A stretch of 62,621 nt of DNA from an uncultured Verrucomicrobia subdivision 3 bacterium (GTDB lineage Bacteria > Verrucomicrobiota > Verrucomicrobiia > Limisphaerales > UBA11358): positions 1 to 62,621 of the forward strand of contig CAIKKJ010000191.1 in the NCBI GenBank assembly GCA_903827955.1, in the 5' to 3' direction. A program made the position numbers and the translations under genes. Below, in pieces: positions 18,524 to 24,120 of the stretch. Below the pieces are notes generated by a model. It saw nothing but the letters and a program-made list of their open reading frames with translations. It was not told where the DNA came from and did no database searches. Numbering within the stretch: position 1 is the stretch's first letter; each line of letters opens with the position of its first letter.

Positions 18524-19930
18524 CTAGCGCGTCAGCTGTTTTTCAAGGTGCAGGACGCGCTGTCGGACGTTGGCGTCCACTTCCATGCGATCTTTGACGA
18601 GTCGGCAGGCGTGCAGCACCGTGCCGTGGTCGCGTCCGCCAAATGCTTCACCGATGACGTTCAGAGAGCTTTCGGTTAATTGACGTGAAAGATACATGGC
18701 AATCTGGCGCGGAAAGGCGATGTTTTCCGGGCGGCGCTTGCTAGTCATGTCTGCAAGGCGGATGTCGTAGTTTTCAGCAACTTTCTTCTGGATGACTTCA
18801 ATGCTTATGGTCTGGCGGCCTTCTTCATGGAGAATTTCGCGGAGCAGACCTTCGACGACTTCGATCGTGAGCTTCTTGCCCGTGAGCGAGGCGAACGAGG
18901 CGACGCGAATGAGTGCGCCTTCCAACCGCCGGATGTTCGTGCGGATGCGCGTGGCGAGGAAATTAATGACGTCATCCGGGAGCGTGACGTTCATGAACTG
19001 CGCCTTTTTTTGCAAGATGGCGAGGCGCATTTCAATGTCCGGTGGCTGTAAATCAGTCACCAGACCCCATTCGAAGCGCGAGACAAGGCGGTTTTCCAGA
19101 CCTTGCATTTCGCTCGGCGGGCGATCGCAGGTCAGGACGATTTGCTTGCCGGCTTCTTTCAAGGCGTTGAACGTATGAAAAAATTCTTCCTGAATGCGTT
19201 CCTTGCCAGCGAAAAATTGAACGTCGTCAATCAGCAGCACGTCGGTGTGACGATATTTTTTGCGAAATACTGCGAGCTTGTTGTTTTGAATCGCATCAAT
19301 GTATTCGTTGGTAAATTTTTCCGAGGAAACGTAGGCCACGCGGGCACTTTTTTTAGTGCTAGCAACGTGCTGGCCGATGGCGTGCAGCAGATGTGTCTTG
19401 CCTAGACCGACGCCGCCGTAAAGAAACAACGGGTTGTAAGCCTTGCCAGGGGTCTCGGCTACGGCCTTCGCAGCGGCAAAGGCGAAATTGTTGTTTGCGC
19501 CGACGACGAATGTGTCGAAAGTGTTTTTTGGGTTGAAATGCAGATCACCATTGGCTGCCGCACGTTCTTGTGCAGTTTCAGAATTTTTTGGCTTGGTTGA
19601 AGCGGCCGATGGCAGTGTGATTGGAGTGGTGGGCAGGTTGCCGTTGGTCACTTTGAATTTCACCGCAAGTCTGGCGCCGGCGGCGATGGCCACAGCGTCC
19701 TGCATGAGACTTAAATAATTATCCTTGAGCCAAACTTCACAAAACTCGTTGGGGGCTTCAATGGTGAGATGGTGGCCATCCACCGCGCTGGCGCGCAGGG
19801 AGGCGAACCACATGTTGAATGTGTCCCGGCTTAACTTGACGCGGAGATGCTCCTGCGCCGTGTTCCAAATTTTTTCTGCCGAAATTTGCATATTGTTGCC
19901 GCTGTCACCCGAATCCCAGTGCTTATTCAC
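18524..19930 (-). CDS. dnaA: Chromosomal replication initiator DnaA
   Basis: A 468-residue DnaA with all four domains. Domain I is near residues 15-95 (KIWNTAQEHL, FNMWFASL), followed by a variable linker. The AAA+ core has Walker A GGVGLGKTH at 172-180 and Walker B VLLIDDVQFF at 231-240. The C-terminal HTH carries the DnaA signature around GRDHGTVLHACRLV. The frame opens with GTG at 19930, preceded by a GGAAAG-type Shine-Dalgarno; an internal ATG 13 codons later is an alternative. A DnaA-box-like sequence (19923-19931) overlaps the GTG, which would fit autoregulation. Confidence 0.96.
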   Translation of the reverse strand: MNKHWDSGDSGNNMQISAEKIWNTAQEHLRVKLSRDTFNMWFASLRASAVDGHHLTIEAPNEFCEVWLKDNYLSLMQDAVAIAAGARLAVKFKVTNGNLPTTPITLPSAASTKPKNSETAQERAAANGDLHFNPKNTFDTFVVGANNNFAFAAAKAVAETPGKAYNPLFLYGGVGLGKTHLLHAIGQHVASTKKSARVAYVSSEKFTNEYIDAIQNNKLAVFRKKYRHTDVLLIDDVQFFAGKERIQEEFFHTFNALKEAGKQIVLTCDRPPSEMQGLENRLVSRFEWGLVTDLQPPDIEMRLAILQKKAQFMNVTLPDDVINFLATRIRTNIRRLEGALIRVASFASLTGKKLTIEVVEGLLREILHEEGRQTISIEVIQKKVAENYDIRLADMTSKRRPENIAFPRQIAMYLSRQLTESSLNVIGEAFGGRDHGTVLHACRLVKDRMEVDANVRQRVLHLEKQLTR

Positions 19931-20385
19931 TTCGTCTTTCCGCCGGCTTTTTCGTCAGAGCCGACAGTCAGTCAACCGTGCTGGCGGACGTGATTCAAGC
20001 GAAATTTTCAAAAGTTTTTCTGCCGTTTGCGCCGACTGCTATCTGAAAGATGAAAAAATCCATATTTTAATAGGGTAAAACCAGATTTTTTCTTCCGGTC
20101 CGCACGGCGCATCCGCAAATTGTGCCGGTGAACTTCCCTGCCGCGATTTACGTCAGCGTTTTTAAGTCATCGTCCGGAAACTTACGAGGACAACATATTA
20201 ACTCTTATTCACGAGTTATTCACACCCCGAAAACATCTTTAAAAAACCAGCGGTTTGATGTTGTTTCAGCGTGGCGGACGGGCGGGCGCAAGCGCGGCTG
20301 GTATAGCAATCCTGCTTCGGGTTCCGCGCGCAGGCTAATCAAATCGGCGCTTGCTACAACAATTACTTATACCTGCGCGTTTGTG
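19931..20385. other. Gene-free region upstream of dnaA with DnaA boxes: candidate oriC or dnaA control region
   Basis: No convincing gene is present. Two DnaA boxes stand in tandem on the + strand: TTATTCACG at 20205-20213 and a perfect TTATTCACA at 20216-20224, 11 bases apart. A third near-match, TTATTCACT, sits at 19923-19931 over the dnaA start. An AT-rich stretch near 20046-20085 could act as an unwinding element. Three boxes are few for an origin, so this could instead be a dnaA autoregulatory region. Confidence 0.45.
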
Positions 20386-20414
20386 TTGACAAAAATAAGC
20401 GTCTATGATTAACT
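20386..20414 (+). promoter_or_regulatory. Candidate sigma-70 promoter for the structured RNA
   Basis: A perfect TTGACA (20386-20391) lies 17 bases before TTAACT (20409-20414), which has a TG extension. An alternative pairing is TTGTGT (20381-20386) with a good TATGAT (20404-20409), also 17 bases apart. The region also contains a 7-bp perfect inverted repeat (CTATGAT/ATCATAG, 20402-20421) that could be an operator. Confidence 0.5.
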
Positions 20415-20415
20415 G

Positions 20416-20604
20416 ATCATAGTTGCAGGCGGCATAAGGGTGGTGTGCTGAGAGTGCCGGCAACCTGATCTTTGAATTTATAATTTCGGCTCTGGCTTGA
20501 GTGCAGCTGGAGCACGAGTTCTCCGTAATCTTACGTTGTGCTCATTCTGAATTCCCCGGATCTTTTGGCCATCCTCTGGCTGACTGATCCGGTTTTTTCT
20601 TTTT
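20416..20604 (+). ncRNA. Unassigned structured RNA (small RNA or leader of hemL)
   Basis: About 185 bases lie between a promoter-like sequence and a strong intrinsic terminator, with no credible reading frame. Visible helices include CGGCA/TGCCG (20430-20434/20455-20459). CTCTGGC/GCTGGAG (20490-20496/20506-20512) competes with GAGCAC/GTGCTC (20510-20515/20538-20543); the two share bases 20510-20512 and cannot form together, as in riboswitches and attenuators. The 5' half has GCTGAGA and AACCTGATC words that recall the TPP riboswitch, but the GCGTAGGGA-type 3' box is missing. hemL starts 96 bases after the terminator. It may be a free sRNA or control hemL. Confidence 0.5.
20556..20604 (+). terminator. 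Strong rho-independent terminator
   Basis: CCGGATC (20556-20562) pairs with GATCCGG (20586-20592), with an inner GCCA/TGGC stem, followed by TTTTTTCTTTTTT on the + strand. No + strand gene precedes it, so it terminates the RNA starting near 20416. Confidence 0.85.
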
Positions 20605-20700
20605 TGGGTGGATGTTTTTGGCTCCACTGATGTCAAAATCTGGCTGGCGAAGTTCAATACTTGTCTTTGTATCTGCGCTGGCCATTGTTAATTTGTTCGC

Positions 20701-21984
20701 ATGAATCGCGCAGAATCTGAAAAACTTTTTGTTGAAGCCTTGCAATATATCCCCGGCGGCGTGAATTCTCCCGTGCGCGCCTTCCGTGCCGTGGGCGGGA
20801 ATCCATTTTTCGTCAATCGGGCTGCCGGCGCAAAACTTCGTGATGTAGATGGAAACGAGATGATTGATTACGTGCTGACGTGGGGGCCGGCGATTCTTGG
20901 CCATGCGCATCCTAAAATCATTGCCGCCGTCAAATCGGCCGCCGAATTGGGAACCAGTTTCGGCATCCCCAATCCGCTTGAAGTCAAAATGGCCAAGCTC
21001 ATTTGCGGCCTTGTCCCCAGCGTGCAAAAAGTCCGCATGACCAATTCCGGCACCGAAGCGTGCATGAGCGCCATCCGACTGGCGCGTGGTTTCACGCGAC
21101 GTGATAAAATCCTCAAGTTCGACGGTTGTTACCACGGTCACGTTGACTCTCTTTTGGTGAAGGCTGGTTCCGGTGCGCTGACCTTTGGGCAGCCGGATAG
21201 CGCCGGTGTGCCGGCGTCGTTTACACAGCACACAATTGTCGCGCCGTTTAATGATTTTGACGCGGTGAAACAAATTTTTGCCGCGAATAAAGATGAAATC
21301 GCCGGCGTCATCATTGAGCCGGTTCCGGGCAACGCCGGTTTGTATCTGCCTCAGCCTGGCTATCTTGAATTTCTCCGCGAAATTACTGCAGCCAACGGCG
21401 CGCTTCTGATTTTTGATGAAGTGATGACCGGCTTCCGTCTGGCACGCGGAGGCGCGCAGGAACTTTTTGGCATCACGCCTGACTTGTCCACGTTCGGCAA
21501 AGTCATTGGCGGCGGCCTGCCGGTCGGTGCGTTTGGTGGTCGGGCAGAAATTATGGACTACCTTGCGCCGCTCGGCCCGGTGTATCAGGCCGGAACCTTG
21601 AGCGGCAATCCTGTGGCGATGGCCGCCGGTATCGCCAATCTTGAAGAACTGGAAGCGGTCAACGCGTATCAAAAACTTGAGCAATTCGGCGCGCAGCTTG
21701 AAGCCGGCATGAAAGCCGCCGCGCAGTCCGCCAAGATACCTGTGCAGTTCAACCGCTGTGGCTCGATGTTCTGTGGTTATTTCACCAGCCAGCCGGTTCA
21801 CAATCTGGCCGATGCGATGACAAGCGACCGTGAGCGTTTCAAAAAATTCTTCCACGGTATGTTGGACGCAGGAGTCTATCTTGCGCCATCGCAATTTGAA
21901 TCCGGCTTTATTTCCACCGCGCACACGGCGACCGATATCGAAAAAACCGTGCAGGTGGCGGCTCAAGTTTTTCGGAAGTTGTAA
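20701..21984 (+). CDS. hemL: Glutamate-1-semialdehyde 2,1-aminomutase
   Basis: A 427-residue class III aminotransferase that converts glutamate-1-semialdehyde to 5-aminolevulinate in the C5 pathway of haem synthesis. The N-terminal [11 protein letters not shown] and RNxGTEAxMxA-like ([17 protein letters not shown]) motifs are typical. The PLP Lys is K267 in [12 protein letters not shown], and FDEVMTGFR holds the cofactor Asp. Length is normal for the family. It is a single gene, 96 bases after the terminator of the structured RNA. The many c-type haem proteins in this window would depend on this pathway. Confidence 0.97.
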
Positions 21985-22677: not shown

Positions 22678-22754
22678 GCGCGCGTAGCTCAACTGGATAG
22701 AGCGTCGGTCTCCGAAGCCGAAGGTTATGGGTTCAACTCCCGTCGCGCGCACCA
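22678..22754 (+). tRNA. tRNA-Arg (anticodon CCG), CCA encoded
   Basis: The cloverleaf is complete in 77 bases. The acceptor is GCGCGCG/CGCGCGC, the D stem GCTC/GAGC, and the anticodon stem TCGGT/GCCGA with loop CTCCGAA (anticodon CCG at 22712-22714). The T arm has loop TTCAACT, and the discriminator A is followed by a genomic CCA. It reads the Arg codon CGG. Confidence 0.95.
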
Positions 22755-23481: not shown

Positions 23482-24120
23482 TCAAGCCAGTTTCCGTCGA
23501 AACTCCGCGCACGCCTTCGCCACATCCGGCGCATTCAAGATCGCCGAGACCGCGCAGATGCGTTTCGCGCCCGCTGCCAGCACTTCATCAATCGTCTGCA
23601 AGTTGATGCCGCCGATGGCAAACCACGGAACAGTCACATTCGCCGCCGCCCAGCGGACATACTCCAACGTCACCGGCTTGGCCGTCGGCTTGGTGTCCGT
23701 CGCAAAAATCGGTCCGATGGCGATGTAATCCGCGCCCGCCTCCAGCGCGCGTTGCGCTTGCGCCGGAGCGTGGGTGGACAGGCCAATTTTTAGTTTTGAA
23801 TTTTTAGTTTTAAGTTCGGAAACATTTTTGAAGCCGGCGTCAAAAAAATCTTCCTGCCCCAGATGGCAGATGTCTGCGCCGATTTCGCGCGCGATTTCCA
23901 GATGGTCGTTGATGACCAACCCCACGTTCGCGGCCCGCGTGACCGGCAAAATTTTTTCCGCCATGCGCCGGATTTCATCGGGCGAAGAATTTTTGGCGCG
24001 CAACTGAATCAAGTCACTGCCGCCAGCGCAGAGCTGCTGCGCGACGAATTCCGGCGTGCGGCCGTGCAGGTAGGCCGTGTCCACGAAGGTGTAAAGTTTG
24101 CAATCCGTGAGCGGTTTCAC
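23482..24120 (-). CDS. thiE: Thiamine-phosphate synthase
   Basis: A 212-residue TIM barrel that joins HMP-pyrophosphate and the thiazole phosphate to make thiamine phosphate. Landmarks are IQLRAKN, VINDHLEIA, GADICHLGQEDF, GLSTHAPAQA, YIAIGPIFATDTKP and FAIGGIN. Between GQED and GLSTH there is a Lys/Ser-rich extra piece (VSELKTKNSKLKI) encoded by an AT-rich repeat-like stretch. The gene stands alone on the minus strand; no other thi gene is nearby. Confidence 0.95.
   Translation of the reverse strand: MKPLTDCKLYTFVDTAYLHGRTPEFVAQQLCAGGSDLIQLRAKNSSPDEIRRMAEKILPVTRAANVGLVINDHLEIAREIGADICHLGQEDFFDAGFKNVSELKTKNSKLKIGLSTHAPAQAQRALEAGADYIAIGPIFATDTKPTAKPVTLEYVRWAAANVTVPWFAIGGINLQTIDEVLAAGAKRICAVSAILNAPDVAKACAEFRRKLA
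23788..23818. repeat. AT-rich repeat-derived segment inside thiE
   Basis: The stretch holds two copies of TTTTTAGTTTT separated by GAA, in a GC-rich gene. It encodes the Lys/Ser/Leu insertion of ThiE between GQED and GLSTH. The base composition contrasts strongly with the flanking coding sequence. Confidence 0.5.

Follow-up and report, generated by a model that had tools for sequence, protein, structure and literature searches.

The window (the whole stretch of DNA analysed, 62,621 nucleotides) comes from an uncultured Verrucomicrobia bacterium. Between its dnaA and hemL genes lies a non-coding RNA (ncRNA) gene, i.e. a promoter, a conserved fold and a terminator that were recognised by comparative sequence analysis (Table 1). 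The first-pass annotation had described a promoter, a structured RNA of about 185 bases at 20416-20604, a strong terminator and the lack of an ORF at this position, which is in good agreement with our results. Folding of the segment 20410-20606 gives a minimum free energy of -65 kcal/mol (z = -2.4 relative to dinucleotide shuffles), and the predicted transcripts of the homologues are 146-209 nt long with a median of 174. Members of the genus share a conserved AGTTGCAG at the predicted transcript start. The longest complete ORF within the predicted transcript has 28 codons; ORF lengths are patternless among the relatives and none of the ORFs is consistent, which rules out a small peptide gene. 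In the surroundings, the upstream region of dnaA carries the DnaA-box-like words TTATTCACG and TTATTCACA (20190-20225), suggesting that an origin is nearby, and a tRNA gene (22678-22751, plus strand) and a thiE-like gene recognised by its sequence (23482-24120, minus strand) are found near hemL.

Table 1. Predicted features of the RNA gene and its neighbours, in window coordinates.
Feature	Position	Strand	Basis or remark
dnaA, divergent neighbour	18524-19930	-	context; outside the RNA gene
Conserved T(A/T)ATAC-type element	20367-20373	+	about 19 bp 5' of the -35 element; 54/80 homologues
-35 element TTGACA	20386-20391	+	kept in 83/87 homologues
Extended -10 element TGATTAACT, consensus TGATTTAAT/TGATTTATT	20406-20414	+	TG-extended; alignment
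Predicted RNA transcript, 178 nt	20421-20598	+	start put about 7 nt past the -10 element; end at the U tract
5' hairpin, variable in sequence and length, with TPP-like words	20421-20465	+	arm-swap test
U-rich linker with conserved UGAUCUUUGA and UUUCG	20466-20488	+	invariant or near-invariant columns, genus alignment A1
Central hairpin P2 (20489-20497 with 20505-20513)	20489-20513	+	covariation
P2 loop UGAGUGC, 5' strand of the pseudoknot	20498-20504	+	covariation, duplex energies
Joining segment with GUUCUCCGUAAUCYUAC	20514-20537	+	columns mostly invariant in the genus; core retained in other families
GUGCUCA, 3' strand of the pseudoknot	20538-20544	+	covariation, duplex energies
Conserved single-stranded linker UUCUGAAUUCC (others UUCGAAAAUUCC)	20545-20555	+	alignment
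Intrinsic terminator: outer stem CCGGAUC/GAUCCGG, inner stem GGCCA/UGGCU, U6	20556-20598	+	covariation
Terminator apical loop UCCUC	20572-20576	+	YCCYC-type loop among homologues
hemL, downstream neighbour	20701-21984	+	context, not conserved; outside the RNA gene

The same promoter is found throughout the homologues. A -35 element with at least five of six matches precedes 83 of the 87, in comparison to 26% of shuffled upstream regions, and the spacer, 17 nt in the window, has the same length in 73 homologues, while 69 of the 83 carry the TG extension. The T(A/T)ATAC-type element further upstream is also well above expectation (15 from shuffles), and in 46 of the 80 homologues it lies 19-20 bp from the -35 element; it is possible that this is an activator or regulator site, an UP element or a second promoter. 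We note that generic promoter and terminator scanners detected neither the promoter nor the terminator of the RNA at 20386-20598, probably because, TG extension aside, the -10 element is weak and the terminator has an internal loop.

The distribution of the RNA was investigated with blastn and with two covariance models, R1 (19 sequences, 31 pairs) and the broader R2 (87 sequences). A blastn search of 20375-20640 against 40 relatives gave 80-94% identity in most genomes of the same genus and weaker matches in other families, with the highest conservation in the promoter and in the 3' two thirds of the RNA (20460-20603). With R1, 161 of the 196 genomes sampled from the same order gave a match (about 80%, more than 50 families), among them 97 of the 111 high-quality ones. 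In a class-wide draw R2 matched 48 of 52 members of the order and none of about 234 genomes from other orders. A draw of 388 genomes across the phylum returned just two genomes of the same genus and one weak match (G228, E = 0.04) that does not have the conserved core, and a laxer search of 38 genomes from other orders of the class gave a single weak match (G754, E = 0.9). Within the sensitivity of R1 and R2, the RNA is, judging by these searches, specific to one order of the Verrucomicrobia, perhaps the Pedosphaerales.

The RNA is usually present in a single copy. Some genomes have two or three, as is common for sRNA genes, and in two cases the copies are in tandem, about 200 bases apart (L095, 2462-2601 and 2805-2943; L074, 2533-2667 and 2208-2346). 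A search for phage and plasmid copies found none. Matches of a pattern scan are mostly in metagenome-assembled genomes (MAGs) labelled 'Verrucomicrobia bacterium'; two others (L102, 1631-1677; L096, 228-274) are in MAGs that bear the names Akkermansia muciniphila and Methanomicrobiales and are perhaps binning errors.

The covariation values observed for the helices of the RNA, including the pseudoknot, were reached by none of 500 shuffles. In the genus alignment 97.4% of the cells are paired and 14 pairs show double changes. P2 has compensatory changes at all 8 pairs counted, and in the terminator the outer and inner helices are paired in 99.5% and 96% of the cells, respectively, again with compensatory changes. 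The apical loop of the terminator is of the YCCYC type and consists of pyrimidines only in about 80 of the 87 homologues, while the sequence of the stem varies. The 5' hairpin is the most variable part of the RNA among the relatives. Nevertheless, its pairing within the genus is weaker when arms are swapped than with the cognate arms (z = -5.1), and the same is true of a related helix around UGUUCUUUG in other families (z = -4.5).

It is conspicuous that the loop of P2 forms an H-type pseudoknot with the strand in front of the terminator, a feature supported by covariation across families. Summed over the 87 homologues, the duplex energy of cognate partners is -614 kcal/mol, as opposed to -443 +/- 16 kcal/mol for permuted partners. 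In a covariance-model alignment that was not fitted to the pseudoknot pairs, 90.6% of the cells are paired and 6 of 6 pairs show double changes; with slid controls the signal collapses. The strand pairs found in different homologues include GGUAC/GUACY, GGCAC/GUGCC, GACAC/GUGUC, AUAC/GUAU, AGUUCA/UGAACU, GAAC/GUUC and GGUGCA/UGCACC. A local hairpin GAGU..GCUC (about 20516-20542) competes with the pseudoknot for one 3' strand, so the mutually exclusive helices that had been proposed from the letters of the window were a fair description. This hairpin (H3), which initially came from RNAalifold, was replaced in the model by the pseudoknot, the latter being better supported across families. Several unpaired positions, i.e. 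GUAAUCCUAC, AAUUCCCCGG and the YCCYC loop, rank among the most conserved of the whole RNA.

The compensatory changes in the helices and the pseudoknot, together with the directional pair of promoter and terminator, also argue against the idea that the segment is conserved regulatory DNA beside oriC and dnaA that gives no RNA product. A divergent dnaA does adjoin the RNA in 27 loci, but in most other families the RNA lies away from dnaA, and we consider this idea barely credible. We conclude from the comparison of sequences that the plus strand at 20421-20598 is an autonomous ncRNA gene, the expression of which we infer.

The 5' half of the RNA in the window does contain words reminiscent of TPP riboswitches, as had been reported: CTGAGA at 20448-20453 and ACCTGATC at 20463-20470. 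These recall the CUGAGA and ACCUGAUC words of the TPP (RF00059) and HMP-PP (thiS) riboswitches, but the likeness is limited to this one species. CTGAGA is confined to the sequence of the window, and the alignment shows that the relatives have a deletion or an unrelated sequence in place of this segment; in addition, the conserved 3' half of these riboswitches is missing and the next gene is not thiamine-related. The RF00059 model found nothing at the locus at E <= 10, nor did the search of the genome itself give a match here. A TPP or HMP-PP riboswitch is ruled out by the unconserved words and the lack of an Rfam match, and the words are a coincidence. A sub-threshold match to the TPP riboswitch (36.7 bits) lies elsewhere in the genome (L021, 1501-1600; G000:C203:4262-4361).

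A scan with Rfam 15 found no family at the gathering threshold at this locus and nothing relevant at relaxed thresholds, and scans of the relatives found nothing at the RNA. The 6S RNA of the same genome is located at a different locus (G000:C164, RF00013, 62.7 bits), and the SRP and RNase P RNAs were matched above the cut-off at other loci, so that an identity with any of the three is ruled out. The RNA could in principle be a copy of one of these RNAs, or of a TPP or HMP-PP riboswitch, that has diverged below detection. Like 6S RNA it has about 180 nt, is near-universal in its clade and is usually present once per genome, and there are the TPP-like words as well. However, the genome has its separate 6S RNA, the present RNA ends in an intrinsic terminator, and its fold, a hairpin loop pseudoknotted to the strand before the terminator, resembles neither the long hairpin with a central bubble of 6S RNA nor the three-way junction of the TPP riboswitch. 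With the blank Rfam scans of the locus and its relatives, this makes a diverged known RNA most improbable. The comparison rather supports a new sRNA class that matches no Rfam 15 family, one of the alternatives raised in the first-pass annotation; its order-wide conservation and its autonomous promoter and terminator point in the same direction.

The neighbourhood of the RNA, in which genes were named by sequence recognition and not by database search, varies between the related loci. The upstream neighbour is a divergent dnaA in 27 loci and a divergent glnB in 17, and in several of the latter dnaA or glnA follows behind glnB. The divergent glnB (PII), often with glnA, occurs in several families (e.g. 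L036, L039, L044, L045, L063, L081, L088), a context that hints at a link to nitrogen. Downstream of the RNA we find ileS in 20 loci (mostly of the same genus), convergent dnaE in 6 and convergent fbaA in 4; leuC, purC, a DEAD-box helicase gene and others take this place in other families, and this genome is the only one in which hemL comes next. The varied and partly convergent downstream genes indicate that the RNA travels independently of any of them. In the ileS-type relatives a separate conserved TTGACA element lies between the terminator and ileS, thus downstream genes can have promoters of their own. An ileS leader or a T-box is ruled out by this element, by the lack of an Rfam T-box match and by the genes found in the other families. 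One relative has a c-di-AMP riboswitch (RF00379, 61.8 bits) on the downstream side of the RNA (L044, 1133-1301, minus strand).

The same data bear on the proposal that the RNA belongs to a 5' leader and senses a ligand (haem, ALA, glutamate or TPP) as a riboswitch or attenuator. A pseudoknot followed by an intrinsic terminator is a riboswitch-like layout, and both the competing helices and, in this genome, the TPP-like words would fit. But the downstream genes differ by family and several are convergent, which leads us to reject the haem-synthesis riboswitch or attenuator of the first-pass annotation and largely refutes the broader proposal by synteny. The almost invariably paired outer stem of the terminator, the TTGACA element in front of ileS, the poor conservation of the TPP words and the blank RF00059 search also speak against it. 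Moreover, an RNA expressed, as we presume, from its own promoter up to its own terminator would not attenuate hemL. A riboswitch is thus very unlikely. The first-pass annotation had missed the pseudoknot, and also that the RNA is conserved across the order and that hemL is not kept as its neighbour.

An autonomous RNA gene whose product acts in trans is, in our view, highly probable. As to the reading as a whole, we lean towards an order-specific, trans-acting structured sRNA, perhaps one with a RepG-like loop or one that binds a protein. The product would be a structured ncRNA of about 180 nt with its own promoter and terminator, and its pyrimidine-only terminator loop would pair with G-rich stretches. 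The model for this is RepG of Helicobacter pylori, likewise an autonomous intergenic sRNA, whose C/U-rich apical terminator loop binds G-repeats (PMC8295292). The use of the terminator loop as a pairing seed was shown for RepG and is proposed for the present RNA; we do not claim homology. RepG belongs to another phylum, and the present RNA has a conserved pseudoknot. RepG is also reportedly shorter. Based on this analogy, pairing through the C-rich loop is quite conceivable, though we would stop short of calling it probable.

A C-rich single-stranded motif is shared with the C-rich-loop sRNAs of Gram-positives (RsaE-like), which target Shine-Dalgarno (SD) sequences. Such targets, however, are almost absent in this order, and there was no Rfam match to such families. 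An SD-like motif was found before only 1 of 39 homology-anchored starts (ileS 0/20, glnB 1/16, fbaA 0/3) and before 1 of the 36 ORFs of the window, in line with a report that some Verrucomicrobia are SD-scarce (PMC10783764). This near-absence makes a classical anti-SD sRNA unlikely, and it also counts against the pairing mechanism, since C-rich sRNA loops lack their usual target here. A search for the anti-SD at the 3' end of 16S rRNA gave no match in this MAG, which may lack the 16S gene. The leaders carry other short conserved motifs, GTTACCGT before ileS and TAGTATCCGC before glnB, which are -10-like and close to the ATG. Hfq was found in none of 30 relatives, the genome itself included (as against 5 of 14 control genomes), so any helper protein would be another one.

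The undetected Hfq is also compatible with a protein-binding or housekeeping-type RNA, in which the pseudoknot and the joining segments, together with the C-rich loop, would be a protein site, either for sequestration as in 6S or CsrB or as the core of an RNP. The near-universal presence in the order, usually as a single copy, the high conservation of the unpaired GUAAUCCUAC, AAUUCCCCGG and YCCYC positions and the maintenance of the pseudoknot by compensatory change would all suit such a role. Conversely, there is no candidate partner protein, the sequence has no repeated CsrB-type GGA loops, and the RNA is no stand-in for 6S, SRP or RNase P RNA, which are encoded elsewhere in the genome. The conserved unpaired joining segments and the pseudoknot themselves could equally well serve protein or ligand binding. 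We regard protein binding as a tentative but serious alternative and rate base-pairing slightly above it.

Known sRNAs are few in the Planctomycetes-Verrucomicrobia-Chlamydiae group, for which a review counts 8 distinct ones (PMC9029176). The present RNA occurs in the majority of the members sampled from a large environmental order; its fold is strongly backed by covariation, and it has no known relative. A bolder and rather unlikely view would make it a lineage-specific core RNA that serves the order as a global regulator or as part of an RNP, perhaps linked to nitrogen, with a mode of action unlike that of known sRNAs. With the covariance model and the alignment, experiments can be taken up directly in a cultured representative of the order. 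As the order seems to do without Hfq and to be sparing of SD sequences, the mode of action of this RNA would be a test of how regulation works without two textbook features.
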